From a virus, in IMG/VR virus record IMGVR_UViG_3300032397_001426, positions 1-30,241 of that record: 30,241 nucleotides of DNA; one strand, given 5' to 3'. The notes under the pieces are model-generated. The model was given only the letters and a program-made list of their open reading frames with translations. It was not told the origin of the DNA and ran no database searches. This document shows, piece by piece, positions 1,309 to 27,681 of the stretch. The stretch's first letter is position 1. Every line of letters starts with the position of its first letter. A program made the position numbers and the translations under genes.

Positions 1309-2307
1309 ATGAAATTTAATCAAATTTTAGAGCTTGCATACCCTAAGAACTTAGGTGTCATGGAGATGTTCAAGTTTTATCAGCTTGCATCTAAAGCTGA
1401 AAAAGACCAGATGCAAGCTTTGATTAACAAGAACGATTTTAACGCGTGTTGGGAGCTCCTTCAGCGAGTCACTGGTGTCAAGTTAGCGCCTGTGAATGAG
1501 TCGATCTCAGCGGTTAAAAACTCGATTCAGATCACGACCCAGCATGACCGAAGCGCTTCTACGATTGACTCGATCTCAACATATTTTAAGAAAGTCCCAT
1601 ATCACACTGCGCTCCAACATAACGAGATCTACTCGATCTTAAACTACATCAGCACGCCTGAGACCATGAAGCTGCTAACATCTCTCAAAGGACGTGGTCC
1701 TTACAATGTCTCAGCGGAACAGCTAGATAGATTTCTAACACAAGTAACTGATGCATGTGCTGGGTTGATCAAGCGGTTGAACCCAGAGGTCATCATCTAC
1801 TCAGCATCGACATCACCTTTGATAGGTGGGTTTGTCTCACATCTTAAAGAAACTCATCCTAAGATTAAAGTTGCGAGCGAAGCTTTCATCAAGAAGAGCC
1901 TTGCTGGCGCTGATGTCAAAGCCGTGCTTAACACAGAGCATCCAGAGTGGACGAAGTTTGCTGATGAGAACCCGAAGGCTGTCTTGCAGCTCAAGCAATC
2001 TTTGAAACATCATCTAGAGAGCGGCGAGCTTGAGCTAAAGAAGCTTTATAAGCCGTACCTCAAGTTCATCAAGAACTTTATCCAGCTTAAAGACGTGTCT
2101 GACACCATTGACGTTGTCAACGAGAAGAGAGTGCTTATAGTCGATGACGTGCTCTCGACAGGCACGACAATTCGTGAGATGATTCGTCAGATCGAAGAGC
2201 TTGAACCTGCTCAAGTTTCTACCTTGACTATCTTCAAGCGAACTAACTTAGTATCAGTTTCGAGGATGATTCCTGTTGCAAAAAATGTTACAGGACATGA
2301 AATTTGA
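1309..2307 (+). CDS. Phosphoribosyltransferase-like protein with possible capsid-targeting leader
   Basis: The C-terminal third holds RVLIVDDVLSTGTT at about residues 274-287, the PRPP-binding loop of type I phosphoribosyltransferases: hydrophobic strand, two acidic residues, then a (S/T)GTT loop. The first 270 residues are mainly helical and not recognised; YSASTSPLIGGF near residue 165 may be another part of the PRTase fold. I chose the ATG at 1309 (MKFNQILEL) over the ATG at 1273 because 1273 lies inside the preceding gene and because other genes here start with the same kind of MK-x-x-x-I/L-L-E stretch. The substrate base is unknown. A terminator follows at 2363. The fold call is moderate; the reaction is not known. 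Confidence 0.75.
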   Translation: MKFNQILELAYPKNLGVMEMFKFYQLASKAEKDQMQALINKNDFNACWELLQRVTGVKLAPVNESISAVKNSIQITTQHDRSASTIDSISTYFKKVPYHTALQHNEIYSILNYISTPETMKLLTSLKGRGPYNVSAEQLDRFLTQVTDACAGLIKRLNPEVIIYSASTSPLIGGFVSHLKETHPKIKVASEAFIKKSLAGADVKAVLNTEHPEWTKFADENPKAVLQLKQSLKHHLESGELELKKLYKPYLKFIKNFIQLKDVSDTIDVVNEKRVLIVDDVLSTGTTIREMIRQIEELEPAQVSTLTIFKRTNLVSVSRMIPVAKNVTGHEI

Positions 2308-8512: not shown

Positions 8513-9405
8513 TGAAGCTAACTGAAGTTCTCAGAGAAGTACCTGACCCAGGTCCTCATCCTAAGGTATCCTGGACGATATTTAATAGAGCATTTGATGA
8601 TCTTATCTTGAAGAGTCTTAGGTATAACAGCTCGAATGATAAGCAAACAATAGAACCAATCATCAGCCACAACTTACGTGTCATTGGTCGGTATCATTTT
8701 GACAGTCTTGATCAGATAGATAACGCTCTCCACGGTGATGACTTTAATGAGCTTTCTGATGCTATTTTTCGCGCGTTGATTCAAGTTACACATAAAATTA
8801 TAATTGATGCTAAGTCTAACTCTTTTCTCGGAACTAGCTGGGAGCTCAAGTCAGTTATCGATCACACGGATTCTGTGCCTATCACATATAGAGAGCTGAG
8901 AAACTTGATTGAAGCTGGTTGTAAAGGTTTTATGGTCTGGTCTGAGCAAAAAACCAAGCATGACAGATATCAGATGCAGCTTAAGTACAAAAAGATTTCA
9001 AGCGAATCAGAACATCTTCTTCAAGACTTAAAACATGAGATAACTCAACATTTTGATGAAGCTATAGATTATAAGCTTAAAGAATTGAAAAAAAATCCAC
9101 GACCGTTTGATTTGTTTTCGGCCACCTCTACCGGTATTGTTGAGTTCGACGTTGCGAGCTTTAAAACTTCAAAGGACCTGTTAGCATGGATTTTTTCACA
9201 CGCTGATACTCCTAAAAAGCTACAAGGGGTTTATCAAGACTTTTATTATTGGGTCATCAGCCATGAAGAGTTCGGAAGCACAGATCCAGAGGTGAAAACA
9301 GCGGCTCTTCACGCGATGTGGAAAGATGATGAGTTTAAGAAAAAAGCGCTTAAGCTGTTGAGTCCCTTTTTCAAAGAAAAGCTAAGAAAGGCAGCACATG
9401 GCTGA
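8512..9405 (+). CDS. Unknown protein with putative capsid-targeting leader
   Basis: A 297-residue, mostly helical, charged protein beginning MKLTEVLREVPDPG, which fits the leader type shared by many accessory genes here, with L-R-E|V as a possible prohead-protease site. The ATG at 8512 shares one base with the gp13-like stop (TAATG), preferred over an upstream ATG at 8485 that would overlap. The DNA looks more AT-rich than the flanking neck genes (runs such as gaaaaaaaatcc near 9090), which suggests later acquisition. No domain is recognised. It lies between two neck genes, so it is transcribed late; packaging in the head is inferred. Confidence 0.8.
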   Translation: MKLTEVLREVPDPGPHPKVSWTIFNRAFDDLILKSLRYNSSNDKQTIEPIISHNLRVIGRYHFDSLDQIDNALHGDDFNELSDAIFRALIQVTHKIIIDAKSNSFLGTSWELKSVIDHTDSVPITYRELRNLIEAGCKGFMVWSEQKTKHDRYQMQLKYKKISSESEHLLQDLKHEITQHFDEAIDYKLKELKKNPRPFDLFSATSTGIVEFDVASFKTSKDLLAWIFSHADTPKKLQGVYQDFYYWVISHEEFGSTDPEVKTAALHAMWKDDEFKKKALKLLSPFFKEKLRKAAHG

Positions 9406-11026
9406 TAAGCCGACTATTGAGAACTGTCCACCGCAGACCGACTGTGATGCGGTCCCTGATGTCACGTTTGCTTTTCCTGGGCCGACAGGACCTTATGTCC
9501 CTCCTGAGCTTTGTGTAGGTAAGGTTGATTATTCAACGTCTGAGTGTGCTGAGAGAGAAGCCGCATATGTAGCAAGCCTTCAAGCTGAAGCATTTAACAT
9601 GGCTGCAGGACCAGTTAATGTTTTCCCGATGTTAGGTGTTCACAGCCAGGGTTCAACACAAGATCTCGTTAACTCAACCGGATATCCAGTCACGTCTGGT
9701 ACTCCGTCAGGGTTCAACGCGCTTGACGCGTTCAATGTAAGCGGTGGTTCTTGGCGCTCTGTGCAGCAAGGTCAAGACGTGCTTACAACGCCTGCATACA
9801 TAGGTTGGTCATTTGGCACGAAGAAAGCTTGGGAGAAGATCGGTCCTCCTCAAGAGCGATATCAAGTTCCTGCTCCTGTGCTTAAACAGATCGGTTCATT
9901 TAAGATAGCTCAAGGCATCGACCCGAACAACAGGGTGTTGCAAGTAAGAGTCGAATCCTCTGATGACGGGGTCACGTGGAAGCGCGTGGACATAGTCAAC
10001 CTCCCTGACACTGATGCTCTAGTGAAGATCGGTGTCAAGGCATATGCTAAGCATAACATGTGGAGGCTCGTTCCTACTTTCTTTTCAAACGGAGTAGCTT
10101 CAAACTCACAATGGGAGGTTGCTCAGCTTCAACTGCTTGAAGAGACAGCGGTAGAGCTTGACAACATCGAAGACTTCTTCCTCTTAGAGAACCGAGACCG
10201 TGCATACTGCCGCACGTCTGTCGGAATCAAGTGCACATATGACTTGCTAGACGTACAGACAGAGCTTGCTAAGTTCGGCATCAACTTGCCGCAGACTTAC
10301 ATCTTCAACTGCAGCTTCGGCGTGATGGTTCAAACGCTTGGGCGGCCTATCGTCATCGGTGATATTCTTGAGCTCCCTGGCGAGGTCCAGTATGACCCAA
10401 ACCTAAAGCCCGTGCGCAAATGGCTTGAGGTGACAGACACAGCTTGGAGCACAGAAGGGTACACGTATAACTGGAAACCTAACATCTTTCGTTTCTACGG
10501 CCAACCTATCCTACCTTCAGTTGAGCATAAAGATATCCTCGGCTTGCCTGGGGTTGTCAACACGCTACAGCCTGATGATGACGTGCTAGCAAACGGGTTC
10601 CTTCAAAACGACCAAGCATACAAAGCCTCTGAAGCAATCAAGCAAGACGCTGAAGACAACGTGCCTCAAACAGGTAGTGACCCACAAGATATCCGAAGCG
10701 GTAAAGCCTTGAGCAAGCCGCCTGGGTCTTATGACGGCACTGACCTCTATGTTCATGATGCGATCCCGCCAGACGGCATAGCTTACACGACAGGAGACAC
10801 CTTGCCAGCTCTTAACACGTTAGCTGATAAAGCTTATCATCGTCAGACTTACACCATGCTCGCTCCTTCGCTACGGCCGCCTGATAGGTTGCTTCAGTGG
10901 GATGCTGGAATCCAACGCTGGCACGTCATCGAGATCAACCAACGGATGACTTATGAGTCACATAAGAAGACGATGGCTAAGATCATGGACTCGCCGCAGA
11001 CGATGAAACCTGACGAGAAGCTATGA
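9398..11026 (+). CDS. 14: gp14-like neck protein with inserted discoidin-like domain
   Basis: The segment from about residue 255 to 375 resembles the gp14 neck fold: DLLDVQTELAKFGINL, a beta strand, then GRPIVIGDILELPG and KWLEVTDTAW, and a W-K-P-N-I-F-R-F-Y strand, matching the KFG ... GRPxxGDxI ... FEV order of T4 gp14. Before it, residues about 110-245 look like an F5/8 type C (discoidin) jelly roll: W-S-F-G ... SFKIAQG ... VESSDDGVTWKRV ... WRLV ... WEVAQLQL; these domains commonly bind sugars. The total of 542 residues is twice T4 gp14 (256). It follows AAGG at 9389 and overlaps the previous gene by eight bases. The position between gp13-like and gp15-like genes supports the call. Confidence 0.75.
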   Translation: MADKPTIENCPPQTDCDAVPDVTFAFPGPTGPYVPPELCVGKVDYSTSECAEREAAYVASLQAEAFNMAAGPVNVFPMLGVHSQGSTQDLVNSTGYPVTSGTPSGFNALDAFNVSGGSWRSVQQGQDVLTTPAYIGWSFGTKKAWEKIGPPQERYQVPAPVLKQIGSFKIAQGIDPNNRVLQVRVESSDDGVTWKRVDIVNLPDTDALVKIGVKAYAKHNMWRLVPTFFSNGVASNSQWEVAQLQLLEETAVELDNIEDFFLLENRDRAYCRTSVGIKCTYDLLDVQTELAKFGINLPQTYIFNCSFGVMVQTLGRPIVIGDILELPGEVQYDPNLKPVRKWLEVTDTAWSTEGYTYNWKPNIFRFYGQPILPSVEHKDILGLPGVVNTLQPDDDVLANGFLQNDQAYKASEAIKQDAEDNVPQTGSDPQDIRSGKALSKPPGSYDGTDLYVHDAIPPDGIAYTTGDTLPALNTLADKAYHRQTYTMLAPSLRPPDRLLQWDAGIQRWHVIEINQRMTYESHKKTMAKIMDSPQTMKPDEKL

Positions 11027-11505
11027 AGCTAGAAGCTCTCTTAGGAGCGACCCCTTTACCGCGACGACCTCGAGAGCCAGGAACGTTTGAGCTTACTGAC
11101 TTAGACTGTTATGTTGATGAAGAAGTCTTGCGTGAGATTCTAAAAGATAAAAAACTAAGGTTGACGTTTCATCATGTCAAGATAATGGTGATCTTAATAG
11201 CCTCTAGTGTCATAGAAGCTCAGTATTCTTACATCGAGAACAAGTATAAAAACATTAACAGGAAGAAGCTGTCAAATGACAACGTCTCATCATTCCTCTA
11301 TAATCCTCTCGACAAGCATATCTACGTAACTATTCATTATAAAGTAAATGAGCAGCAAGATCCTAGAGACATCCACGTTTCGTTTAAAGTAGGAAAAGGC
11401 GCTATATCGATGAAGATCATCGATGATGCTGAAGTAGAAAAAATAAAAGCATCCCCTGACGCTATTCATCTTTTTAAGCTGATGTCAACGGCAGCTGACC
11501 TATGA
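11023..11505 (+). CDS. DEEV-family paralogue 1, unknown function
   Basis: First of three adjacent related genes. It encodes 160 residues: a short leader (KLEALLGATPLPRRP), then the family signature FELTDLDCYVDEEVLREIL followed by KKLRLTF, a helical middle and a mixed alpha/beta C-terminus. The signature also occurs in the genes at 11502, 11972 and 22529, and in diverged form at 23007 and 25092. The ATG overlaps the gp14-like stop (ATGA), so it is translated with the neck genes and is probably made late. The leader lacks an obvious (I/L)xE site, unlike many neighbours. Function unknown. Confidence 0.82.
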   Translation: MKLEALLGATPLPRRPREPGTFELTDLDCYVDEEVLREILKDKKLRLTFHHVKIMVILIASSVIEAQYSYIENKYKNINRKKLSNDNVSSFLYNPLDKHIYVTIHYKVNEQQDPRDIHVSFKVGKGAISMKIIDDAEVEKIKASPDAIHLFKLMSTAADL

Positions 11506-11975
11506 AGCTAAACGAAGTCTTAGATTTTCCTGTTGACCCAGGTAGCTTTGAGATCCTCAACCTACAAGGTTATGTGGACGAAGAGGTTTTTGCTTCTCTG
11601 CTTAAAGAGAAAGGTTTAATGCTAACTTATAACGGAGTTGAGCTTCGCAAGGCAGAGGCCTTCGAATCGATCTTACATCGCTTCTTTGGTATGGTGCGAG
11701 AGAAGTACAAAGCTGAGGTCAACAAAGGTTGGGTTCTGAATTTTAGCACCACGCTTAGAGCATATTATAACTGGAACAACATGTGCTTATACTTCGTAGA
11801 GGAGTACACGCTAAAGCATTCTGTTTCGTTGTCTGTCAAAGACTTTGAAGTCTATCAGCGAATTTCATATACAAGCACGCTGAAGAGGTTTGACTTTAAG
11901 ATCCTCGAACTTGACCAGTATGAGGCTGAGACTAAAGACAGCAATGACCTCATAGACTTGATGAAAGTGCTATGA
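11502..11975 (+). CDS. DEEV-family paralogue 2, unknown function
   Basis: 157 residues, beginning KLNEVLDFPVDPG and then FEILNLQGYVDEEVFASLL with GLMLTYNGVEL, parallel to its two neighbours. The ATG overlaps the preceding stop by four bases (ATGA), and its own stop overlaps the next start in the same way, so the three paralogues form a coupled tandem. Similarity among them is clear in the first 45 residues and weak afterwards, which points to old duplications with fast divergence of the C-terminal part. Function unknown. Confidence 0.82.
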   Translation: MKLNEVLDFPVDPGSFEILNLQGYVDEEVFASLLKEKGLMLTYNGVELRKAEAFESILHRFFGMVREKYKAEVNKGWVLNFSTTLRAYYNWNNMCLYFVEEYTLKHSVSLSVKDFEVYQRISYTSTLKRFDFKILELDQYEAETKDSNDLIDLMKVL

Positions 11976-12475
11976 AGATTACTGAGCTTCTGCTTGCTAA
12001 GAGACCTGGATTTTTCGAGCTGCTAAGCCTTGACAGCTATGCAGACGAAGAGGTTCTTAAAGCTTTGCTCTGGGAACACCGCTTGATATTGTCATATAAC
12101 GACTGGGAGCTCAACATTAAAAGAGCAACTAGCTCTCTGCCTGTGTTAGACAACGCTTATAATCTTGTAAGGACATACTTTAGACAGATCGGCCACCGTC
12201 CTGACAAAAAAGAAGATCCGAGCTACATCGATTTCCTTTTCAAGAAAACTTTATCACTTTTTTACGACCCGAATGACAAAAGCTTATATGCATCAGAAGC
12301 ATTTGGCCCTGAAGACTCTAATCCTAAGAGTATGCATGTTATAGGGTATAAAGTTTCAGTCAAACAACAGTGGATATCTAACAACTATGAAGTGATGAAG
12401 CCTCTTGAGTATAGTAAGCTTATTGCTGGTAAAAATGACCTTATTGATGTCTTAAAAATACTTCTTGGACGCTGA
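11972..12475 (+). CDS. DEEV-family paralogue 3, unknown function
   Basis: 167 residues, with the leader KITELLLAKRPG and the family signature FELLSLDSYADEEVLKALL plus HRLILSYNDWEL. The C-terminal half has a strand-rich stretch (SLFYDPNDKSLYASEAF) that parallels SFLYNPLDKHIYVTIHY of paralogue 1 and AFVYDPKAKELMMKFII of the copy at 22529. This second shared block suggests the whole protein is one conserved fold. It ends two bases before the metalloprotease gene. Function unknown. Confidence 0.82.
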   Translation: MKITELLLAKRPGFFELLSLDSYADEEVLKALLWEHRLILSYNDWELNIKRATSSLPVLDNAYNLVRTYFRQIGHRPDKKEDPSYIDFLFKKTLSLFYDPNDKSLYASEAFGPEDSNPKSMHVIGYKVSVKQQWISNNYEVMKPLEYSKLIAGKNDLIDVLKILLGR

Positions 12476-12477
12476 AG

Positions 12478-13401
12478 ATGACATTTAAACCGTTTCTCGC
12501 TGAAGGTTTGATCAAGCTGCCTCCGAAGATCGTAGCGGAGGCAACGAAGTTCTTGCTTGAGAAGCTACTAGCATACCTCTCGTCTTATGAAGAAGGTGAC
12601 AAGCTAGACCGCGAAGTCTATGCTACGAACCTCAAGCGCTTCGCTGCTAAGCATGACCTCTCGAAGCCTTCAAGAGCTGAAGTTGAAAAAGCAGGTCGTT
12701 CAAAGCTAGCACAGACTGTGCTTAAGCTTGAAATCCCTGAGTCATACGTCTCAAGCATCAAGCGCCTCCATAAAGGTGAGATACATAAAGCATCATTCGC
12801 GATCAAGTATGTCATCGTGTTTTCGGGAAAACATGAGCTGCTTAACCCTGACGAGAGCGGAGCGTTTATAGAGAAACCTCCGACGTTGCTGCTTAACATC
12901 AACGCTCTTAACCTCGCTCGCGAAGATGTCGCGCAACAAGTCTATGTCGGCGCGTTTAAAGAGATCGAACGAAGGATCGAGTACGCGGTCACGACCCTTG
13001 AACACGAGCTGACTCACGCTGTGCAGTTCATGGTGCTAAAGCAACTTCACCCAGAGCAAGTCAGCAGCAGCGGAACACACGGAGCATCAGACAAAGGGTC
13101 GTTTGATGAGATCTACTACACCTCACAGCTTGAGTTTGATCCTCAGCTCAAGTCATCGTTAAAAGACTTTGAGCATCTTGTGCGTCGCAAGGGAGCGAAG
13201 ACTAAAGAAGCAAAGCGTGAGCTTCTTCATAAGTTCACGTGGAGCGACACAGCAAAAGCTGACATCCCAGACGTTGGAGAAAAGGTAGTCTCAGGTCGAA
13301 GCCCGTTCTTCCAAAGCTTGAAGCGCGTTGACCACGCTAAGTGGAAGAAAGCTCTCAAGCTGTTCAGCACAAAGGTCAACATCGAAGAATTAACTAAATA
13401 G
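12478..13401 (+). CDS. HELTH zinc metalloprotease with putative capsid-targeting leader
   Basis: A 307-residue protein with HELTH at 176-180 (TTLEHELTHAVQ), the HExxH zinc site of zincin proteases. A third ligand is probably an acidic residue in DEIYYTSQLEFD (210-221). The N-terminus MTFKPFLAEGLIKLP holds L-A-E|G, a good match to the T4 gp21 cleavage pattern, so the leader may be removed during head maturation. It is unlike the SprT-like protease at 2741 in size and motif spacing. It is the last gene of the tandem after the DEEV paralogues; its stop codon overlaps a late promoter box. A peptidase packaged in the head and injected is my inference; a peptidoglycan or host-protein target is equally open. 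Confidence 0.82.
   Translation: MTFKPFLAEGLIKLPPKIVAEATKFLLEKLLAYLSSYEEGDKLDREVYATNLKRFAAKHDLSKPSRAEVEKAGRSKLAQTVLKLEIPESYVSSIKRLHKGEIHKASFAIKYVIVFSGKHELLNPDESGAFIEKPPTLLLNINALNLAREDVAQQVYVGAFKEIERRIEYAVTTLEHELTHAVQFMVLKQLHPEQVSSSGTHGASDKGSFDEIYYTSQLEFDPQLKSSLKDFEHLVRRKGAKTKEAKRELLHKFTWSDTAKADIPDVGEKVVSGRSPFFQSLKRVDHAKWKKALKLFSTKVNIEELTK
13393..13400 (+). promoter_or_regulatory. Possible T4-type late promoter box (ACTAAATA)
   Basis: ACTAAATA overlaps the metalloprotease stop codon and lies about 60 bases before the gp15-like coding sequence. It shares the TAAATA core with the other boxes here. Confidence 0.45.
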
Positions 13402-15624: not shown

Positions 15625-16023
15625 ATGAAGCTATCCTCGTTCTTCGAATCTCATGCTAGTCTTATAGCCAGCATTAGAATCTCAAAAGAAGTGCTTGATG
15701 CTGTCACGTTTGCTGATATCTTAGCAATTGTATCAGATGAAGATCACCTTGATTCATTTTTTCAGCTTACAGAAAATCATGACTTTTTAGTGAATGTCTT
15801 GTTCAATGAACAAGCGACCAAGCCAGGCTCAGGTTTTATCTTTGACATCTATGCTGTTCCTCTCACTGATGTCGCAAATGACATGTTAGGCGAGCATGGA
15901 ATGCATTTTCAAGTACAAACTTGGTTCAACTACCGAAAGTTGAAATTTGAAAGTTCAGAGCTAAACAACAGAGCCATGTCAGAAACAGAAGCTCGTACAT
16001 CCTTTCCAGATCATAAGTTTTGA
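15625..16023 (+). CDS. Small unknown protein with leader-like N-terminus
   Basis: 132 residues beginning MKLSSFFESHASLIAS. The start resembles the MK-x-x-x-F/L-x-E leaders of the accessory set, though F-F-E replaces the (I/L)xE site. The body is acidic and mixed alpha/beta (DAVTFADILAIVSDEDHLDS; SGFIFDIYAVPL). The DNA is visibly AT-richer than the flanking tail genes. It lies behind the tail tube hairpin and has no clear ribosome site (weak AAAG) and no promoter box, so expression probably depends on read-through. Function unknown. Confidence 0.7.
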   Translation: MKLSSFFESHASLIASIRISKEVLDAVTFADILAIVSDEDHLDSFFQLTENHDFLVNVLFNEQATKPGSGFIFDIYAVPLTDVANDMLGEHGMHFQVQTWFNYRKLKFESSELNNRAMSETEARTSFPDHKF

Positions 16024-17953: not shown

Positions 17954-18817
17954 ATGAAAATACTCGAAATTCTTGACCACAAGCTTGACAGCGCGTTAAA
18001 GAAGTTAGACATGTCAGATGACAAAGACCGGGCTATGATGCATATTCTTTTGAAGTCAAGATACGACTTTCAAAAACATCTGTTAGGTCGTGAACCTTCA
18101 AATCCCCCGAAGGACATGGGTGATGTAATTATCTGGCTACACTTGCTAAGCTATAGCGGAAGAGACGGGATTGATGAAGAAAGTTATCAGATAGATGATG
18201 ATCTGTCAGTTAAACTACTTTTCGGTTTGAAACTCTACCTTCGTGACATAAACACTGACGATGTTGACGGTAGAGCTCATGAAGGCACCAAGCATCAAGT
18301 AGATCCGTTACCGATAAAATTCAAACCTCTGACTGGTGCTGGAGCGTTAGATGTCTCTATAGAGACACAAATCTCTAACCTTGATAACTTTCCTAATGGT
18401 TGTAATCTGTCTATCAGCAATGGAACGCTAAAGTCATTTAAGTCAAATACGCTTTCTAAGCTCGAAAGGTTTGAAACAGGTAATAACGTAAACGTGCCAG
18501 AAGTTGATGCTAAACTTTCATTTGGACAGATGGTGCTAGGCCATCATAGCTCGTCAAATTTTGAACTTACATTTAAAGAGATGTATAAGCGTGGATGTAA
18601 GGTAGATACATTTTATTTTGACATACCTGACAAGCACTTCATTCAGATGAAACCATTATACTTGGCTGCGTTAGGGCTTAAACACGTGCACGATACCCAG
18701 TCAAATAACAAGAATCATCAAAAATTTGCCAAGTTACTACAAGAAAATCCCGACAACATCATCGGCTTGCAACACGCTTTGATGGATGAAGGTTTAGACA
18801 AGTATGCACAGCTTTAG
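17954..18817 (+). CDS. Unknown protein of the 'QHxLIEAGL' C-terminal-motif family
   Basis: 287 residues starting MKILEILDHKLDSAL. The C-terminal IIGLQHALMDEGLDKYAQL matches the ends of the two LRR proteins at 19721 and 20587 (IDAQHELIEAGLEDLAEL, IIECQHLLIEAGYEELAQI). The middle, around residues 135-180 (ISNLDNFPNGCNLSISNG, then LKSFKSNTLSKLERF), looks like a few decayed leucine-rich repeats. The first 110 residues are helical and unrecognised. Base composition is AT-rich compared with gp4-like and gp16-like neighbours. The AGGAG ribosome site of the next gene overlaps its stop. Likely a member of the accessory, perhaps packaged, set. Confidence 0.8.
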   Translation: MKILEILDHKLDSALKKLDMSDDKDRAMMHILLKSRYDFQKHLLGREPSNPPKDMGDVIIWLHLLSYSGRDGIDEESYQIDDDLSVKLLFGLKLYLRDINTDDVDGRAHEGTKHQVDPLPIKFKPLTGAGALDVSIETQISNLDNFPNGCNLSISNGTLKSFKSNTLSKLERFETGNNVNVPEVDAKLSFGQMVLGHHSSSNFELTFKEMYKRGCKVDTFYFDIPDKHFIQMKPLYLAALGLKHVHDTQSNNKNHQKFAKLLQENPDNIIGLQHALMDEGLDKYAQL

Positions 18818-18825
18818 GAGATCAT

Positions 18826-19362
18826 ATGGATGAGATAAATTCTACACCGCTTGAAGACATCTTTAACCTAGAACCTGGTTCGACGCCTAAAGCCGTGATT
18901 GTCAAGGCTAGCTCGGCTGATCTTGTTGACCCGACAACCGGTGAGATCATCGAGCGAGCTGTAGACGCAGATGCGCCAGCATTAGCTAAAGAGGAGAGGA
19001 TCGAAGACCTCAAGCTTGATGCTCAGCTCACGACAGTTCATATCGCGGCCATGGAGGCCTTCGAAGCTCAGCATGCTCTCTCGCAGCAAGTTGATCCTAA
19101 GTTCTCAGCTCGGAACTCAGAGGTAGCAGCTCAGTATCTCAACATCGCTCTCGACTCTGTCAAGACCAGAGGTGACTTGAAGTACAAGCGTCAGAAGATC
19201 CGCATCGCGACTAATGTTGACGGTTCTAGCAGGACTCCGACACAGAATAACCTCATCATCGCTGACCGCAATGACGTGCTTCGCTCGCTCTTCAGCCAAG
19301 ACTTTGAGAAGACTCTCAAGGGTACGGTGAAAGATGACATCTTAGCGGACAAGAACGGATGA
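18826..19362 (+). CDS. 16: Small terminase subunit (gp16-like)
   Basis: 178 residues against 164 for T4 gp16. The architecture fits: an acidic N-terminus (LEDIFNLEPG) and VDPTTGEIIE, a central helical pair (FEAQHALSQQVDPKFSARNS, then AAQYLNIALDSVKTRGDLKY) that would form the oligomerisation core, and a polar C-terminus with NNLIIADRNDVLRSL, like the 'n...vfvGs..el' of gp16. The protein would recognise phage DNA and stimulate the gp17 motor. AGGAG (18815-18819) precedes the ATG. In T4 gene 17 follows immediately; here nine other genes come between. Confidence 0.75.
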   Translation: MDEINSTPLEDIFNLEPGSTPKAVIVKASSADLVDPTTGEIIERAVDADAPALAKEERIEDLKLDAQLTTVHIAAMEAFEAQHALSQQVDPKFSARNSEVAAQYLNIALDSVKTRGDLKYKRQKIRIATNVDGSSRTPTQNNLIIADRNDVLRSLFSQDFEKTLKGTVKDDILADKNG

Positions 19363-19721
19363 AAATCAGCGAGCTCTTAGTTGAAACTCACTTAAGCGAC
19401 AGGAAGGTGAAGCTTAGCAACGGCACTGTCAACATCGTGTGCAGCGCTAGCTTAGGATTTGCTAAGACGGTGGAGTTTCAGTGGATTCGATTTTATGTCT
19501 GGAGAGACACGGACAGCCTTCATCCAGACGGGCCAGAACTGACGGAAGAATTTGAGCTGTCAGATGTCTATGACACACAAGAAGTTAGAAAGCTGATCAA
19601 AGGTCTTCTTAAGTATTTTAAGAAAGCTGGCACCGTCGAAGCCGTAGAGGAGTTCTTAGAAGGCGCTAAAGAACATGACAACTTTTCAATGTTAGCCGCT
19701 AAGATGATCAAGGAGCCATGA
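19359..19721 (+). CDS. Small unknown protein with putative capsid-targeting leader
   Basis: 120 residues beginning MKISELLVETHLSDRK, with L-V-E|T as a candidate prohead-protease site at residues 7-9. After the leader come two beta-rich segments (KLSNGTVNIVCSASLGF; EFQWIRFYVWRD) and a helical C-terminus. The ATG overlaps the small terminase stop (ATGA), so it is translated with the packaging gene, and its own stop interlocks with the next start (ATGATG). No family recognised. Confidence 0.78.
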   Translation: MKISELLVETHLSDRKVKLSNGTVNIVCSASLGFAKTVEFQWIRFYVWRDTDSLHPDGPELTEEFELSDVYDTQEVRKLIKGLLKYFKKAGTVEAVEEFLEGAKEHDNFSMLAAKMIKEP

Positions 19722-20590
19722 TGCGGTTTAAGTCACACATCGATGAAGCTGCACCGAAGAGCGCGAAGGGAGAGGTAGAAAGAGCTCTGACTGATCTCAA
19801 GACGACGGCCGCCGATACATTGTTTTTGCGCAACAAGCATCTTACCTCTCTTAAGATGTTAGCAACTCCTAAGATTGTACATGCTGTGCAAGCTGATCAT
19901 AACTTGCTTAAAGACCTCGAAGGCTCACCTCAAGCGGTGAACGGGTCCTTCTCGGTTGATCACAATAAGCTTATATCTTTGAAAGGTTGTCCTAAGAAAG
20001 TAGGATCATACTTTTCAGTTTCAGATAATAGCTCACTTTCGTCTCTCGAAGGCGGGCCTGAAGAAGTAGGCACGGCATACTACTGTGGCAACACAAGCAT
20101 CAAGAACTTTAAAGGGATCGGAACAATAGGTTCTAGCCTTTATGCCTCTAACTGTAAGCTTACTTCGCTTGAAGGCTTGAGCATGAAATTTTTACAAGAG
20201 CTTGATGTTTCTGGAAATCAGCTTACAAGCCTGATCGGGTGTCCGACTCAAGACATCACTGAGCTTGACGCGAGCAGCAATTTGCTGACAAGCTTAGAAG
20301 GTGTTCCTCAGAGAATAGGAACTCTTAACGTAGCACAAAACAAAGGTTTAGTTTCTTTAGAAGGGATCGGTCATAAGTTTCTCAAGGTGTGTGAACGCAT
20401 CGACGTGACAGGTTGCAAGATCAAGACTAACGCGTTAGGCCTCCTCATGATTTCTGGTCTTGATCAGATTGACGGAGACTTCGAAGGTTTAGAAATCATT
20501 CAGAAGCATCTAGGGACCGGTCAGTCTGGGCTCATCGATGCACAACACGAGCTGATCGAAGCTGGCTTAGAAGACTTGGCGGAGCTATGA
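19721..20590 (+). CDS. Leucine-rich-repeat protein with putative capsid-targeting leader (LRR 1)
   Basis: 289 residues from the ATG at 19721, which has better spacing to AGGAG (5 bases) than the ATG at 19718. MRFKSHIDEAAPKS contains I-D-E|A, a textbook match to the gp21 site. Residues about 40-225 hold roughly eight repeats of about 21 residues with the pattern L-x-S-L-E-G-x-P-x-x-V-G ... N-x-L (for example NKLISLKGCPKKVGS, NLLTSLEGVPQRIGT). The C-terminus GLIDAQHELIEAGLEDLAEL is shared with the genes at 17954 and 20587. LRR solenoids bind other proteins; phage copies of this repeat type have no known partner. Packaging is inferred from the leader. Confidence 0.85.
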   Translation: MRFKSHIDEAAPKSAKGEVERALTDLKTTAADTLFLRNKHLTSLKMLATPKIVHAVQADHNLLKDLEGSPQAVNGSFSVDHNKLISLKGCPKKVGSYFSVSDNSSLSSLEGGPEEVGTAYYCGNTSIKNFKGIGTIGSSLYASNCKLTSLEGLSMKFLQELDVSGNQLTSLIGCPTQDITELDASSNLLTSLEGVPQRIGTLNVAQNKGLVSLEGIGHKFLKVCERIDVTGCKIKTNALGLLMISGLDQIDGDFEGLEIIQKHLGTGQSGLIDAQHELIEAGLEDLAEL

Positions 20591-21354
20591 GATTCAAAGA
20601 ACAGCTTGTTGCTAGGCCAGGTGATGAGGCTAAGACACCAGCTGAGAAGAAGGTCCTGATCTTATCTTGGCTTAAGAAAAATAACTTTCACAACTGCATT
20701 GTCAATGATGACGGTGAGGTAGACTCACCCACCTCTATTGACTTAGGAATGATGAGGTTTAAAGCCTCAAGCTATGCTGGGCTTAAATCAGTGTTACCTA
20801 AGTTTGGAACTATCCACGGATCTTTTGACGCATCGACTATCGGAGCAACCGAGCTGTTAGGATGGTGTCCCCATACCGTGACAGAAGCATGTAACCTCAA
20901 CAACAACCACTTAAGCGATTTAAGAGGCGCGCCGAACACCGTAAACGGGAAGTTTGATGTCGCTCATAATGAGCTTTCAACCTTTGAAGGCGCCCCTCGT
21001 TTAGTCGATGCTTTCGCTGCATCAGGCAATAACCTCTCATCATTTGAAGGTTGTACTCCTGATATCGGGATGTATCTCGACATCAGAGAAAACAAGTTCA
21101 AGTCTCTTAAAGACATCAACAAGCACGTCAAGAAGCTTGACGGTTTCTTAGCTATCAGCGGGAATGATATCACAAGTCACGTCATGGGTGTCTTCTTAAT
21201 CGAAGGTCTCACAAGCCTCCAGTTTAACAGGGGTGATCAACGCTGGGCTGAGATCGTGAATGACCACTTAAGCTTACCAGACCGCAACCCAGCCATAATT
21301 GAATGTCAGCATTTGCTGATCGAAGCAGGATATGAGGAGCTAGCTCAGATATGA
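20587..21354 (+). CDS. Leucine-rich-repeat protein (LRR 2)
   Basis: 255 residues. The N-terminus MRFKEQLVARPGDEA resembles the leader of LRR 1 but lacks a clear (I/L)xE site. Residues about 70-190 contain about five repeats of the same type (NHLSDLRGAPNTVNG, NELSTFEGAPRLVDA, NNLSSFEGCTPDIGM). The C-terminal IIECQHLLIEAGYEELAQI is the shared end motif, preceded by a similar helical block (GVFLIEGLTSLQF against GLLMISGLDQIDG). It overlaps both neighbours by ATGA, so the pair probably arose by duplication and is co-translated. Confidence 0.84.
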   Translation: MRFKEQLVARPGDEAKTPAEKKVLILSWLKKNNFHNCIVNDDGEVDSPTSIDLGMMRFKASSYAGLKSVLPKFGTIHGSFDASTIGATELLGWCPHTVTEACNLNNNHLSDLRGAPNTVNGKFDVAHNELSTFEGAPRLVDAFAASGNNLSSFEGCTPDIGMYLDIRENKFKSLKDINKHVKKLDGFLAISGNDITSHVMGVFLIEGLTSLQFNRGDQRWAEIVNDHLSLPDRNPAIIECQHLLIEAGYEELAQI

Positions 21355-22532
21355 AGTTCAAAGCATATATGCTGACTGAAGCAACAACAGACTTGCACGA
21401 GCTCGCTGTCGAGCTAGCTAACAGCATGAAGACTATCATGCCGCCAGAAAAATATTCGACGACTAAGGCTGACAAGCTGATAGATGCTGTTGATGAGATA
21501 GCAGCCGGGATCAAGGATGACAAGATCTACAACGCTGCGTGGACCGATGCTAAGAGCACGATCTACTATCGGTTTGAGGAGCTGTACAGCTCTCTCTATT
21601 ATCGAAAGATCGCGGCTGACTATGACGGTGACAAGAATCACAACTACAACCCGAACATGCATCGTTGGGTCCTCGACAATTATGACATCAGCCCAAATAT
21701 CAACGCTAACAACATCAAGAGTCAGCTAAAGCTGATCGACAAGGTTTTACCAAAGCTGAACGGGCATGACAAGAAGCACGCGGAGGAGCTTGGTGAGATG
21801 TTGAAGAAGTTCGAGCTGATCAGCGACGGGATCAAGTCTTTGAAGTCTAAGACTATCAAAGGACGTAAGCCAACTGAGCCAGACCCGAATGCTTTTTACA
21901 ACAAGGTCGGCTCAAAAGATGCTCAAGAGCTCGTTCGTAAGCACTTGCTAGCAAACATCACGCCGTCTCTAGACGAGTATGAAAAGGAGATGACTAAGTT
22001 TTTCAAGAGCGAGATCGATGACTTAGCATCGAGGACAGAGATCAACGGGAACAGCCTTGACGGCCTGACACAAATTGTCTTGCAAAGTTGCTTTGACTAT
22101 AAGGTCGAGTATGATAAAGGTCGTGTAGGCAATCGAACTTATGTGATCAAGGGAAAGAATGACAGAGCTGTCGGTTGGCCTGCCGCTGAAGCCGGGCGGA
22201 TGCGTAAGTCAATGGAGGAAGGGTTCCTCGCTAAGAACATCCGCAAGCTTAGCAACATCATCGACCTCAAGGGTAACCTGACGAAGATCACCGACTTGCC
22301 GTCAAAACCTGTCAAGGTCTCGAAAGGCCGAGGTTCGTTAGAAGCAGGATTTAAGTTTCTCTTCAATGACTCGGCTGAGTTCTCTGTTGTCAACAAGATC
22401 ATCACAAACTACTCGATGCGTGGGCTGCCGTTCTACCAATATCCTACGACCTTTCATGACGTGAAGCTCGCTGACGGTAAGAAGCTAAGCATGCCGTCTG
22501 AAGAGAAGATGGTCAAGGACTTTCCTAAATGA
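21351..22532 (+). CDS. Unknown protein with putative capsid-targeting leader
   Basis: 393 residues starting MKFKAYMLTEATTDLHE, with L-T-E|A at residues 8-10 as a good prohead-protease site. The body is Lys-rich and helical (for example LKLIDKVLPKLNGHDKKHAE), with a more conserved-looking stretch near 270-285 (RAVGWPAAEAGRMRKS) and a C-terminal beta part. No catalytic motif is recognised. It overlaps the previous and next genes by four bases each, within the block between the two terminase genes. Confidence 0.8.
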   Translation: MKFKAYMLTEATTDLHELAVELANSMKTIMPPEKYSTTKADKLIDAVDEIAAGIKDDKIYNAAWTDAKSTIYYRFEELYSSLYYRKIAADYDGDKNHNYNPNMHRWVLDNYDISPNINANNIKSQLKLIDKVLPKLNGHDKKHAEELGEMLKKFELISDGIKSLKSKTIKGRKPTEPDPNAFYNKVGSKDAQELVRKHLLANITPSLDEYEKEMTKFFKSEIDDLASRTEINGNSLDGLTQIVLQSCFDYKVEYDKGRVGNRTYVIKGKNDRAVGWPAAEAGRMRKSMEEGFLAKNIRKLSNIIDLKGNLTKITDLPSKPVKVSKGRGSLEAGFKFLFNDSAEFSVVNKIITNYSMRGLPFYQYPTTFHDVKLADGKKLSMPSEEKMVKDFPK

Positions 22533-23005
22533 CAGATTCGTTTGAGCTTACTACTCTTGACAGCTATGTCGATGAAGAGCTGTTGTATTTTATCATAACA
22601 GACAAAGGGTTAAACCTTACATTCGACCGCTCTTCTGTCTGGGGAAACATCTATGTTAGCTATCGTAATCGTTCTATAAGAGAGTTTCGAACTCTGACAG
22701 CAGATCATCTTCGAAAAGAGTGGACCGCAAAAGAACGTCAAAATGCTCCTGACATGAACAGCCTTTTGATCGGCGATCATATCGAGGCTTTCGTGTATGA
22801 TCCTAAGGCTAAAGAGCTGATGATGAAGTTCATCATCAGCGCTAAGGGAGTGATCTCAAGAACATTTTGTTTTAAGCTGCTTGACAGCAGTTCTTCTGCT
22901 ATTCCAGAAAACTGGGTTAGAAAAATTCCAAATGTGAGGCTTGAAAAGTATGAACATGTCAACTTGCTAAGGCTTCACAAGCTCACAAGAAATCAAATCG
23001 CCTGA
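22529..23005 (+). CDS. DEEV-family paralogue 4, unknown function
   Basis: 158 residues. The signature lies at the very N-terminus, FELTTLDSYVDEELLYFII then KGLNLTFD, and the second shared block AFVYDPKAKELMMKFII at about residues 87-103 matches paralogues 1 and 3. Unlike them it has no leader before the signature (only MTDS), so either the leader is not needed or this copy is not packaged. The ATG overlaps the previous stop. Function unknown. Confidence 0.82.
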   Translation: MTDSFELTTLDSYVDEELLYFIITDKGLNLTFDRSSVWGNIYVSYRNRSIREFRTLTADHLRKEWTAKERQNAPDMNSLLIGDHIEAFVYDPKAKELMMKFIISAKGVISRTFCFKLLDSSSSAIPENWVRKIPNVRLEKYEHVNLLRLHKLTRNQIA

Positions 23006-23006
23006 C

Positions 23007-23567
23007 ATGAAGCTAACCGATCTTCTCACAGAGGTTATTGCTTTATCAAAAAGCAAGTATGAGCTGCTGAAGTTTGAAGCCGCTGATGAAGACGTGTTGA
23101 TTCACGTCATGAAGCAAGATGATGATACTAATGACTTGGTTTTTAACAGGGTAGTAATCATGCAGCCTGGAGCCAACTATAACAGCAATTATCTCATAGG
23201 GAGCATGGAATCATTTGTTATTAAGAAAGCTGGTGAACAAAATGATGCTGCTTACGGTAAGTTTGGTTGGACAGGTGATGATGTCAGAACAATCAGCGCG
23301 GTCTATAACTTTGAGAAGAAGCAAGTCATAGCTGTGTTTGAGTTGATAGACACTCATTGGAAGTTCGGAAAAGCTGCGAAGCATCCTAAAGAAAGACCTA
23401 GTCCGTTCAAGCATGCCGGTGATGTCTCGCTTGAAAACAAACCTTGGATCGTGACAGCTTCCGCTAGCAGCTCAAGCAAGCGTTGCAAGTTTCAAGCAGA
23501 AGCAGGACGACGTTCAAAACAAGCAAACGAGCTTGACTTGCTCTATATTATAAAGGCTTTCAGTTGA
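23007..23567 (+). CDS. Diverged DEEV-family member with putative capsid-targeting leader
   Basis: 186 residues. MKLTDLLTEVIALSKSK gives a leader with L-T-E|V, and YELLKFEAADEDVLIHVM is a diverged form of the family signature FEL-x-x-L ... DEEVL. A later stretch (SAVYNFEKKQVIAVFEL) corresponds to the second block of the other members. The last 35 residues are basic and Ser-rich. It starts one base after the stop of paralogue 4, so the two form a tandem. Confidence 0.78.
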   Translation: MKLTDLLTEVIALSKSKYELLKFEAADEDVLIHVMKQDDDTNDLVFNRVVIMQPGANYNSNYLIGSMESFVIKKAGEQNDAAYGKFGWTGDDVRTISAVYNFEKKQVIAVFELIDTHWKFGKAAKHPKERPSPFKHAGDVSLENKPWIVTASASSSSKRCKFQAEAGRRSKQANELDLLYIIKAFS

Positions 23568-24319
23568 AGCTGCTTGAGCTCATAGGCGTGAAGAAGTACC
23601 AAGACAAGACCATGGACGAGCTTGGTGTCCTCCTCACGACCATGACACCGTACAAAGGAGCAGGCTTCGGGTTATTCTCGAGGGTGTTCAAGAAAGACAA
23701 CAAGCTCTACAAGTTTTGGATGGGCGACAGCGCATATGACAAGTTCTTAGACTATGTTGTCAAGCATCAAGACAACCCATGCTTGCCGAAGGTGCTCTCT
23801 AAGATCAGGACGATGAAGGTCTTCTTCAAGAGGCACAAGAAAACCCCTGACGTGCTTAAGCATGTTCAGCTAGAAGAGCTAAAGCCTGTGACCGACAAGA
23901 CAAAGATCAAAGCCCACTCAGGAGGACAAAATGGCCTCGGAGCATACGAGCCAGAGGAGGTTGAAATCTATGCTGTCTGCTCAGCGTTAGCAACGGCTGA
24001 AAAAGACGTCGGTAAAGGAGCTGACAAGATCTATGAAAAAGCGGTCAAGTACCTCAACAAAGAGCTTGAGTATGACCAGGTTAAAGACCCTAACTTGATC
24101 AACATCTTGAAAACTGTAGCGGAGATCATCTCGCTACCTGCCATCGAACCAGACCTTCATAGCGGAAACTTCATGATGAGAGGGGATCATCAGCTGGTGA
24201 TCATCGATCCAGGTGTTGTCAAGGAAGACCGTGAGCTGATGTCATGGCTCAAAGACTTAAAGCTGCACGGTGACGAGTCAACAGCAGACATCGTGTCAGG
24301 CACCAAGAAAACAAACTGA
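23564..24319 (+). CDS. Protein-kinase-like protein with leader-like N-terminus
   Basis: 251 residues from a TTG start at 23564 that overlaps the previous stop (TTGA), with AAAGG upstream. Kinase-fold features are in order: a Gly-rich loop GAGFGLFSRVF (32-42), a candidate ATP-binding Lys50 (KLYKFW), a hinge-like VQLEELKPV (101-109), a catalytic loop DLHSGN with Asp197 and Asn202, and a metal-binding DPG at Asp215 (QLVIIDPG). This DxHxxN ... DPG form occurs in aminoglycoside-phosphotransferase-like and atypical kinases. The lobe is short. The start MKLLELIGVKK resembles the leaders of the packaged-type proteins. A kinase acting on host proteins is plausible; the substrate is unknown. Confidence 0.75.
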   Translation: MKLLELIGVKKYQDKTMDELGVLLTTMTPYKGAGFGLFSRVFKKDNKLYKFWMGDSAYDKFLDYVVKHQDNPCLPKVLSKIRTMKVFFKRHKKTPDVLKHVQLEELKPVTDKTKIKAHSGGQNGLGAYEPEEVEIYAVCSALATAEKDVGKGADKIYEKAVKYLNKELEYDQVKDPNLINILKTVAEIISLPAIEPDLHSGNFMMRGDHQLVIIDPGVVKEDRELMSWLKDLKLHGDESTADIVSGTKKTN

Positions 24320-24351: not shown

Positions 24352-25095
24352 ATGCCTAACGCATTAGTTAAAAAATACGCTGAGAAAGCAAAATGCTCAG
24401 TAGAGCATGTTGAGGAAGTTTGGAGCAAAGCTAAAGAGGTCGCGAAAGAACGGTTCAAAGGAACAACGAGCCCGAGCTATTGGGCATACGTTAACGCGAT
24501 CACCCAGCGTGGCTTGAAGCTGAAAGAATACAGCTTTAAAAAGTTTAGCCAGTTTACACCAGACATGGAAGCGGTACCTCCTGACATGGAGGTAGCTATC
24601 AGTTCGCCCGCTGAGCCGCAAGCAGCACCTCCTCTCGAAGCACCCCAGCCAGAAGCAATTGCTCCAGAAGCTCCAGCAGAAGTTCCAGCAGAACCTCAAG
24701 TCGTACCTGCACAGCCAGAACCTGAGGTGCATGTCGGCGGAGGCAAGCTTGTCTCAATGCTTTTTGGTGCTCGAGACTGGGCGCACACGCTGCATTTGAA
24801 GACCTCAAGCCACGCGGCTCACCTAGCGCTAGGCGAGCTTTACACTGAGTTGGTTGACCTCGCTGACGGGTTCGCTGAGACAGCACAAGGAAAGCATGGT
24901 CTCTTGTCTGTGCTTGCATGCTCGTCTGAATTTGTTGACACGGACGAGCGTGGCTTCATCTCTAAGCTGGCGAGCTGGCTTGAGACTGAAGGTAGGGCGT
25001 GCATCGAACCGACCGACACCTATCTCCTCAACCAGTTAGATGAAATTCTTGCAGCGGTCTATCGCGCTAAGTACAAGCTTGAAAACTTAAAATGA
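24352..25095 (+). CDS. Two-domain phage protein with Pro/Glu-rich linker (C-terminal DUF5856-like)
   Basis: 247 residues. The N-terminal 50 (KKYAEKAKCSVEHVEEVWSK, then SPSYWAYVNAITQRGLK) match a small domain common in phages, a helical pair followed by an S-P-x-Y-W-A-Y-V motif. A low-complexity Pro/Ala/Glu linker covers about 75-125. The C-terminal part (KLVSMLFGARDWAHTLHLKT, then SSHAAHLALGELYTELVDLA) looks like the helical DUF5856 family, with several His and Glu spaced as in ferritin-like four-helix bundles. The role of either domain is not known to me. It has its own ribosome site and a weak promoter-like box, and is the first gene after the leader-bearing run. Confidence 0.78.
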   Translation: MPNALVKKYAEKAKCSVEHVEEVWSKAKEVAKERFKGTTSPSYWAYVNAITQRGLKLKEYSFKKFSQFTPDMEAVPPDMEVAISSPAEPQAAPPLEAPQPEAIAPEAPAEVPAEPQVVPAQPEPEVHVGGGKLVSMLFGARDWAHTLHLKTSSHAAHLALGELYTELVDLADGFAETAQGKHGLLSVLACSSEFVDTDERGFISKLASWLETEGRACIEPTDTYLLNQLDEILAAVYRAKYKLENLK

Positions 25096-25682
25096 GCTTG
25101 ACGCTTAAGCAGTTCGGCGAAGGAAAGAGAACAAAAGCTTCTCCTAAAGAGCTTGAGATCTCTGAGCTCAAGACAGCAGGTGACGAGGACGTGCTCGCTG
25201 AGCTGATCAGCAGCCAGAACATGGTCTTGACATACTTAGGAGATGACATCAACGAGCTATTGAACATCAAGTATCCTACTTTTGCTTATGAGTATCTTAA
25301 AACTACAAACGCAAAAGGTACTGAGATGACATGGAACCATCCGTTAAAGAACATCTCCCTTCAGACGATGCTTAAGAACGGAGGTAAAGAATGTTGGCAT
25401 AGAGGCAAATACTATAACATCGCTTATCTACCTGGGTCTCAGTCACTCTTTGTTTATATGCTTTTTTCGATGCTGGTCAGGCCGATGATCGACGGTATTA
25501 TGAATCAAAAGAGGTTCTCGCTTAATCATTTCATCATCGAAGATCATAAAGGGAAGCTAACTCCTGTACCACAACTTCCAAACCCAAGCGACAGGATAAG
25601 CTTAAATCGTATCTTTCCAAAGCAGATAAATGCACCAGGTACCGAATATCATACATGGCGTAGGACCGTGACAGCATCATAA
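25092..25682 (+). CDS. Diverged DEEV-family member, unknown function
   Basis: 196 residues. After a basic N-terminal stretch (LKQFGEGKRTKASPKE) comes LEISELKTAGDEDVLAELI and NMVLTYLGDDINEL, which follows the same spacing as FEL-x-x-L-x-S-Y-x-DEEVL ... LTY in paralogues 1 to 4. The middle (YYNIAYLPGSQSLFVYMLF) corresponds to the second family block. The ATG overlaps the previous stop, and the large terminase gene begins eight bases after its own stop. This is the sixth and most diverged member in the window. Confidence 0.76.
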   Translation: MSLTLKQFGEGKRTKASPKELEISELKTAGDEDVLAELISSQNMVLTYLGDDINELLNIKYPTFAYEYLKTTNAKGTEMTWNHPLKNISLQTMLKNGGKECWHRGKYYNIAYLPGSQSLFVYMLFSMLVRPMIDGIMNQKRFSLNHFIIEDHKGKLTPVPQLPNPSDRISLNRIFPKQINAPGTEYHTWRRTVTAS

Positions 25683-25689
25683 GGACAGC

Positions 25690-27246
25690 ATGAGTAAGTC
25701 AGAGCTTATAAAAAGAGCATATACAGAGAGCGAGTACACGACCGAGCAAGTCATCGAGCTAAAACGATGTGCGAGGGACCCGCTCTACTTCATGCGCAAC
25801 TATATGAAGGTGATGCATCCGACCAAAGGTGCTGTCAAGTTTGACCTGTTTGACTATCAAGAACGCTGTGTCAAAGCGTTCCAAGAGAATCGATGGGTGA
25901 TCGTCAAGTGCGGTCGTCAGATGGGCAAGACTACGGTCATCGCGGCATACCTTCTCTGGTTTGCTTGCTTCCACTTTGAAAAGTACATCCTCGTCGCTTC
26001 GAAGGATAACGACGCGGCTGTGGATGTCATGGATCGGATTCGTTTCGGTTATGAAGAGCTGCCGCACTGGCTCAAGCCAGGTTGCCTCTACAACAACCGA
26101 CATGAGATCGTCTTCGACAACAACTCAGCTATCAAGTCAACAGCTACTACCGAGAACACAGGTCGCGGTCGCGCGGTCTCGCTCTTGATGTTGGACGAGC
26201 TGGCTTTCGTGAAGAGCGAGATCCAGGACGATATGTGGGCGTCTCTCGCGCCGACGTTATCGACAGGAGGTTCTTGTATCGTGTCATCCACGCCGAACGG
26301 TGACCAAGACCTCTACGCTCAGCTGTGGCGCGCAGCGAACACGTTCGCTGGTCTTGAACCTGGTGAGAACGGCTTCATGCCGGTCAATGTCGAGTGGGAC
26401 GAACACCCAGATCGCACACCGAAGTACAGGGACGAGATGATCGCCAAGGTGGGTGAGGAAAAGTGGGAGCAAGAGTATGAGTGTAAGTTCCTCTCGTCTG
26501 ACCCGCTGCTCATCAACTCTTTAGTCTTGCAGTCTCTAAACGGTCGCCAACCGTTATTCATAGACAAAGGCTTTAAGTTTTGGCAGCGGATCGAGCCTGG
26601 TAGAACTTACATGGTAGGTTGTGACGTGTCTGAAGGAATCAAGAAAGACTTCTCGACGATTGAGGTGTTCGAGCTTGAGACGTTGAAGCAAGTTGCGGAA
26701 TTTCGAAACAACACCGTGAAAGAAGGACCGTTCTACCAAGCGATGAAGTGGGTGATCATCTACATCTTAAATCATCGAAACCCACAAAGCGGTAAGAAGG
26801 CTTCGGTCATCTGGTCATTTGAAAACAACAGCGTGGGAGCCGCTATAGCGGCTATGCATTATGCGGATGAGAAGTTTCCTGAAGAGGCAGAGCTCGTGTC
26901 TCACGGAACTAAGATCGGGATGCCTACGAGCCACAAGTCAAAGTCTATCGCGTCACGTGACTTAAAACGTTTGCTTGAGCGGTCAACCTATCCGCTTGAG
27001 ATCTACTCTGTAGAGCTCATTAGCGAACTTAAGAACTACGTGCAGTCTGGTTCAAAAGGAACATACCATGCTAAGAGCGGCTCGACTGATGACTTAGTCG
27101 CTGCTACTCTCATCATCACCAGGCTGATCAACTACATCTCGACTTATGAGCCGGATGCTTTCAACAAGCTTTACGGGTCTGATGAGGAGTTCTTTGATCA
27201 GACCACGAGCGAGTTTGACGAGCCTATGCCGATGGGTATCATCTAA
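25690..27246 (+). CDS. 17: Large terminase subunit (gp17-like packaging ATPase/nuclease)
   Basis: 518 residues with all motor motifs: Walker A CGRQMGKTT (74-82), Walker B LLMLDE (165-170), the coupling motif SSTPNG (199-204), and an RNaseH-type nuclease with Asp312 (VGCDVSEG), Glu378 (WSFENN) and Asp467/468 (GSTDDLVAA). It drives ATP-powered DNA packaging into the prohead and cuts the concatemer at headful. It is shorter than T4 gp17 (610 residues), chiefly at the N- and C-terminal ends. AAGGA (25681-25685) precedes the ATG closely. Its last residues are acidic (SEFDEPMPMG). A late promoter box lies just after the stop. Confidence 0.96.
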   Translation: MSKSELIKRAYTESEYTTEQVIELKRCARDPLYFMRNYMKVMHPTKGAVKFDLFDYQERCVKAFQENRWVIVKCGRQMGKTTVIAAYLLWFACFHFEKYILVASKDNDAAVDVMDRIRFGYEELPHWLKPGCLYNNRHEIVFDNNSAIKSTATTENTGRGRAVSLLMLDELAFVKSEIQDDMWASLAPTLSTGGSCIVSSTPNGDQDLYAQLWRAANTFAGLEPGENGFMPVNVEWDEHPDRTPKYRDEMIAKVGEEKWEQEYECKFLSSDPLLINSLVLQSLNGRQPLFIDKGFKFWQRIEPGRTYMVGCDVSEGIKKDFSTIEVFELETLKQVAEFRNNTVKEGPFYQAMKWVIIYILNHRNPQSGKKASVIWSFENNSVGAAIAAMHYADEKFPEEAELVSHGTKIGMPTSHKSKSIASRDLKRLLERSTYPLEIYSVELISELKNYVQSGSKGTYHAKSGSTDDLVAATLIITRLINYISTYEPDAFNKLYGSDEEFFDQTTSEFDEPMPMGII

Positions 27247-27251: not shown

Positions 27252-27259
27252 TATAAATA
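27252..27259 (+). promoter_or_regulatory. T4-type late promoter (TATAAATA, exact)
   Basis: An exact TATAAATA, the T4 late consensus, six bases after the large terminase stop and 25 bases before the next ATG. Confidence 0.8.
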
Positions 27260-27673: not shown

Positions 27674-27681
27674 TATAAATA
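27674..27681 (+). promoter_or_regulatory. T4-type late promoter (TATAAATA, exact)
   Basis: A second exact TATAAATA, with the same flanking bases (agcTATAAATAca) as the one at 27252, 75 bases before the gene 32 ATG. The region between is AT-rich and contains no other gene. Confidence 0.75.

Follow-up and report, generated by a model that had tools for sequence, protein, structure and literature searches.

The window analyzed here, 30,241 nucleotides of viral DNA, contains an open reading frame (ORF) that, by its sequence and predicted structure, is a member of the T7 gp0.7-like family of truncated phosphotransferases. Its predicted product begins with a sequence resembling the capsid-targeting leaders of phage T4, and its gene is situated among late genes. 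We consider it somewhat probable that the protein is a late, leader-targeted kinase of a large T4-related phage that is packaged, injected, and phosphorylates host proteins. In this scheme, the kinase would be synthesized late, together with the head and terminase genes, and its N-terminal leader would direct it to the prohead core. It would then be packaged beside the DNA, with or without removal of the leader by the prohead protease, and upon infection it would be injected and would phosphorylate host proteins ahead of phage gene expression. Such a scheme would follow the logic of T4 Alt with a different chemistry.

A sequence-only reading of this DNA had described a 251-residue, kinase-like ORF at 23564–24319. 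Re-reading of the sequence confirmed that the ORF is open and genuine, that its N terminus is MKLLELIGVKK, and that its motifs had been numbered correctly (G32-x-G34-x-G36, K50, a hinge region at E104/L106, D197-L-H-S-G-N202, and D215-P-G217). The ORF starts with TTG rather than ATG, and this codon overlaps the stop codon of the preceding gene (TTGA); a ribosome-binding site lies 7 nt upstream (Table 1). The next in-frame ATG (23612, codon 17) was rejected as a start codon, having no comparable Shine–Dalgarno site. Sigma-70 promoter counts were at the level of shuffled sequence.

The assignment as a kinase is now backed by sequence families, a family alignment, and a predicted fold. Among PHROG profiles, phrog_15752 (protein kinase) matches residues 30–219 with an E-value of 2.5e-8. 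Neither direct tblastn of the window kinase against named phages nor scanning viral contigs with a peptide pattern turned up any relatives, and a PDB search with its sequence alone gave nothing significant; searches of NCBIfam and PADLOC gave nothing relevant. Relatives were recovered with a degenerate DNA pattern encoding the catalytic-loop peptide DLHSGNFM, which yielded 42 stretches in viral contigs, many of them encoding kinase-like proteins of 206–265 residues. When a family HMM was built from 22 relatives with the window protein left out, the kinase ORF scored E 5.7e-21 and none of the remaining window ORFs scored better than E 0.5; on the strength of this independent match, a chance occurrence of the kinase motifs was rejected. 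In an alignment of 23 sequences (the window kinase and 22 relatives from viral contigs and named phages, T7 gp0.7 included), G36, K50, D197, and N202 are invariant, and E104, H199, G201, D215, and P216 are nearly so, D215 being present in all 22 sequences that have a residue at that site. All but one of the 23 members match phrog_15752. No clear member of the family was found in XacN1, PA5oct, or Phosso; a weak phrog match in PA5oct was dropped, as it sits over a ribonucleotide reductase gene.

The gene content around the kinase gene identifies a late region, unlike that of the early T7 gene 0.7. A small-terminase-like gene (18826) precedes the kinase gene and the large terminase gene (25690) follows it; head-closure and tail genes are located upstream. 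From 18826 to 24319 the ORFs form a string that fits a single transcription unit, because most of them overlap by a few bases. A related contig (L003), whose terminase is 79% identical to that of the window, has the same flanks and no kinase; in its place (L003:1258–2439) is a nucleotidyltransferase-like ORF with the leader MKLLQQLLE/L (a slash marks the cleavage position) and a weak match to NTP_transf_2. Because the same flanks enclose a different leader-bearing ORF in that contig, the position resembles a slot for interchangeable cargo. On the plus strand, an exact T4-late-promoter-like TATAAATA site occurs twice, at 27252–27259 and 27674–27681, in intergenic gaps past the large terminase gene, and a repetitive ORF occupies the left edge of the window (5–1291). 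A small unknown family (FELxxLDxYVDEEVL...) has six or more paralogs in the window (11023–12475, 22529–23005, 23007–23567, and 25092–25682), and the leader, or its cleavage glutamate, is present in some of them and absent in others.

Table 1. Kinase gene, its motifs, and leader-bearing or neighboring ORFs of the window (a slash marks the leader cleavage position)
Feature	Position	Strand	Basis
Phosphoribosyltransferase-domain protein, leader MKFNQILEL	1309–2307	+	
ORF with leader MKLTEVLRE/V	8512–9405	+	
Three tandem paralogs, leaders MKLEALLG, MKLNEVLD, MKITELLL	11023–12475	+	
HExxH (HELTHAVQ) protein, leader MTFKPFLAE/G	12478–13401	+	Matches virion structural PHROGs
ORF with leader MKLSSFFES	15625–16023	+	
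ORF with leader MKILEILDHK	17954–18817	+	
Small terminase-like ORF, late gene, left border of accessory block	18826–19362	+	phrog_445, E 1.1e-5
ORF with leader MKISELLVE/T	19359–19721	+	
Leucine-rich-repeat ORF, leader MRFKSHIDE followed by A (second ATG, 19721)	19718–20590	+	LRR_4, E 2.6e-7
ORF with LRR-like repeats, leader-like start MRFKEQLVARPG	20587–21354	+	Sequence
ORF with leader MKFKAYMLTE/A	21351–22532	+	
Upstream neighbor of kinase, leader MKLTDLLTE/V; overlaps kinase start	23007–23567	+	
Ribosome-binding site AAAGG of kinase	23552–23556	+	Read from sequence
gp0.7-like truncated protein kinase, TTG start, 251 aa	23564–24319	+	ORF reading, profiles, alignment, model
Leader-like N terminus of kinase, MKLLELIGVKK	23564–23596	+	Capsid-targeting-like core; no L/I-x-E residue at positions 8–10
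Gly-rich loop G32-x-G34-x-G36	23657–23671	+	Alignment: G36 invariant, G34 17/23
K50, beta-3 ATP-binding lysine	23711–23713	+	Alignment: invariant, 23/23
Catalytic loop D197-L-H-S-G-N202	24152–24169	+	Alignment: D and N invariant, H 21/23, G 22/23
D215-P-G217, DFG equivalent	24206–24214	+	Alignment; 34 residues remain after motif, no normal C-lobe
DUF5856/phrog_858 ORF, right neighbor of kinase	24352–25095	+	Profile matches
T4-type large terminase, late gene, right border	25690–27246	+	

The leader core, defined as M[KRN][LIFVAM]xx[LIFVYM][LIFM] and counted in ORFs of at least 100 residues, stands at the start of 11 of the 34 ORFs of the window, compared with 2 of 187 in control jumbo and T4-like loci treated alike (p 1.5e-8), and at none of the 161 internal methionines of the window genes. 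Several window ORFs carry the complete leader with its cleavage site (those starting at 8512, 12478, 19359, 21351, and 23007). The kinase itself has a hydrophobic targeting core of the T4 type, MKLLELI, which belongs to the enriched pattern and is disordered in the predicted structure. It has no glutamate at positions 8–10 and so no L/I-x-E site for a prohead protease; M17-D18-E19 is a non-consensus alternative cleavage site. The leader-like start proposed by the sequence-only reading is supported indirectly: the core is enriched in the window and complete leaders occur on most relatives, although the window kinase itself has no cleavage residue. The missing glutamate does not mark a dead leader, because the paralogs of the small unknown family within the window mix the two forms: those at 11023, 11502, and 11972 have leaders without it, and the one at 23007 has a leader ending in LTE.

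Among the kinase relatives in viral contigs, the majority begin with a complete T4-like leader for capsid targeting and prohead protease cleavage (MKISELLTE/S, MKINEVITE/S, MRINEVITE/S, MKITEILTE/A, MRAEEFLSE/A, and MRAKEFLVE/S). Genes adjoining these relatives often have the same leader, NUDIX proteins included. In one contig (L036:9895–11148), a leader, an ART-PolyVal domain (E 2e-25), and a gp0.7-type kinase are joined in one protein, which adjoins other leader-bearing ORFs, one of them a NUDIX protein. Rhizobium phage RHph_I1_18 has two adjoining kinase-family ORFs (L057:41–1866), of which the first lacks the usual leader and the second (L057:1201–1866) starts with LKSFSEHIAE/S. Stenotrophomonas phage RAS14 (L011) likewise encodes a gp0.7-type kinase that bears a leader.

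Virion mass spectrometry is available for PA5oct and S-CREM2, and in both phages most leader-bearing proteins belong to the virion. PA5oct has a terminase 39% identical to that of the window; 5 of its 6 coding sequences (CDS) with a leader at the annotated start were detected in the virion, compared with about 89 of 439 others (~20%; p 0.002), although p-values for both phages are optimistic because the leader patterns were written after some of their N termini had been seen. The published virion proteome of the T4-like cyanophage S-CREM2 includes an S-adenosylmethionine (SAM) hydrolase, a kinase, and a cytidylyltransferase, and its authors note that contamination of the purified virions is possible (PMC10665884). 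These three proteins begin with MKDFDSFLEE, VKRFDAFLTE, and MKNFSSFLTE, respectively, and the fourth CDS of this shape, gp13, was detected by one peptide, so that all four CDS with a leader of the MKx(F/L)xxFLxE type (OR473000.1; gp6, gp13, gp14, and gp154; L067, L073, and L078) are in the proteome. The paper on these virions does not mention the leader (PMC10665884). Both of the virion kinases reported by mass spectrometry that we inspected for a leader bear one: VKRFDAFLTE/E in S-CREM2 gp14 and MISFDQFLSE/K in S-CRM01 g130. The text of the phAPEC6 and RaK2 papers reports no virion protein kinase.

By analogy with these phages, the window kinase is likely packaged. The earlier suggestion of packaging in the manner of T4 Alt gains indirect support from the way the leader tracks virion proteins in PA5oct and S-CREM2 and loses from the missing cleavage residue in the window leader. 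A further counterpoint is that the kinases supported by mass spectrometry come from other phages and belong to a different, longer subfamily.

The main alternative is a gp0.7-like kinase that is made after infection and acts inside the cell unpackaged, with a leader that is degenerate or out of use. T7 gp0.7, an early protein and an established kinase, is the characterized relative, and its N terminus, MNITDIMNA, is not such a leader. The lack of L/I-x-E in the window protein would also fit this alternative, as would the relatives in the jumbo Salmonella phages 7t3 and Munch, which sit among small hypothetical genes and of which the 7t3 kinase is leaderless. The window gene, however, lies in a late block within a string of leader-bearing ORFs, leaders lacking the glutamate also occur on the small-family paralogs of the window, and most relatives have complete leaders. 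We regard an unpackaged kinase as rather unlikely, and favor the packaged one.

The predicted structure bears on what the enzyme does. In the AF2 model of the window protein, which is of moderate confidence (mean pLDDT 69.8), the strands of a kinase N-lobe are seen together with an alpha-C helix, the catalytic loop, and the strands that surround DPG, and residues 1–14 are unstructured. Foldseek matches the model to T7-like phage kinases (E about 1e-8) and, in the PDB, to APH and Ser/Thr kinases with TM-scores of only about 0.3. The model of a better-sampled relative (L037) has a higher pLDDT (86.7), with disorder restricted to residues 1–11, its leader, and matches APH(2'')-Ia and PknB. The comparison with kinase folds that the earlier reading had called for thus yields a fold of the T7 gp0.7 type, a kinase that ends soon after the DFG equivalent and whose C-lobe is missing or minimal. 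The alignment agrees, most family members ending 4–37 residues past DPx.

These matches raise the possibility of a small-molecule kinase akin to the aminoglycoside or choline phosphotransferases, which would act on a metabolite or antibiotic and might or might not be packaged. The DLHxGN loop is nearer to those of APH, choline kinase, and ABC1 than to HRDxKxxN, the top fold match in the PDB is APH(2'')-Ia, the only Pfam match is a weak one to ABC1, and a PDB sequence search with the family profile gives only a weak match to APH. The nearest viral relatives by sequence and structure, however, are annotated as protein kinases, T7 gp0.7 among them, and the window protein lacks the C-terminal lobe with which APH enzymes bind their substrates. 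Membership in the APH class was rejected on these grounds: a DxHxxN-like loop is present, but the helical substrate-binding C-lobe is not, and TM-scores against the PDB are only 0.3–0.4. We consider a small-molecule substrate improbable; the window phosphotransferase is most likely a protein kinase, and we infer a protein substrate. A catalytically dead, kinase-like component of the head or scaffold would be consistent with the reduced C-lobe and with the absence of the alpha-C glutamate across the 23 aligned sequences, but is very improbable, given that T7 gp0.7 lacks the same glutamate in the alignment and that nearly every member retains K50, D197, N202, and D215 even at identities of about 20–25%, which suggests selection for catalysis.

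The kinase of the window combines features of several known systems. With T7 gp0.7 (phrog_2828/phrog_15752 family) it shares GxGxxxxxxY/F, the beta-3 lysine, D-(L/M)-H-S-G-N, and D-P-x; the T7 protein is early, leaderless, and has a long C-terminal part (147 residues from DPV on), whereas the window kinase, encoded in a late block, opens with a leader-like sequence and lacks the C-terminal extension.

The T4 internal proteins and Alt have N-terminal targeting sequences of 10–19 residues that are cleaved by gp21 after L/I-x-E, and targeting persists when leader processing is blocked (PMC9026906). Alt and IPI–III resemble the system proposed here in the short leader on non-structural effectors, the late genes, and the delivery of an enzyme with the DNA (PMC9026906). 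Alt, however, is an ADP-ribosyltransferase, and the window kinase, a putative packaged protein, has a leader without the cleavage glutamate. Virion-associated kinases have been reported by mass spectrometry in the T4-like cyanophages S-CREM2, S-CRM01, and S-TIM5 (PMC10665884). Those of S-CREM2 and S-CRM01 resemble the window kinase in having a leader (MKxFxxFLxE type), but the cyanophage enzymes are 755–821 residues long, with a long linker, a PF00069/APH-like domain, and marginal similarity to the gp0.7-type HMM. For the kinases of polyvalent proteins, which lack the C-terminal subdomain, packaging and injection have been predicted (Iyer et al. 2017; PMC5512222). The window kinase has the loss of this subdomain in common with them, and one leader-bearing relative is fused to ART-PolyVal. 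Assignment to the polyvalent class was nonetheless rejected: the glutamate before strand 2 and the insert between the conserved His and Asp are absent from the alignment, and the loop is D-L-H with no preceding conserved His.

Already known, then, were T7 gp0.7, virion kinases in T4-like phages (PMC10665884), injected polyvalent kinases (PMC5512222), and T4 capsid targeting (PMC9026906); in the papers searched, we came across no account of a gp0.7-type kinase with a capsid-targeting leader. We tentatively propose, as a possibility just short of an even chance, that many T4-related and jumbo phages use one transferable head-loading leader on swappable accessory genes to assemble a set of injected enzymes, and that T7-type host shut-off kinases have repeatedly been turned from early-expressed proteins into pre-loaded virion cargo. 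Besides gp0.7-type kinases, the set may include ADP-ribosyltransferases, NUDIX hydrolases, phosphoribosyltransferases, nucleotidyltransferases, cytidylyltransferases, and SAM hydrolases. If so, the leader would provide a sequence rule for predicting injected effectors among the many uncharacterized late genes that T4-related and jumbo phages carry, and infection by these phages would open with protein phosphorylation before phage genes are read, as T4 opens with ADP-ribosylation.
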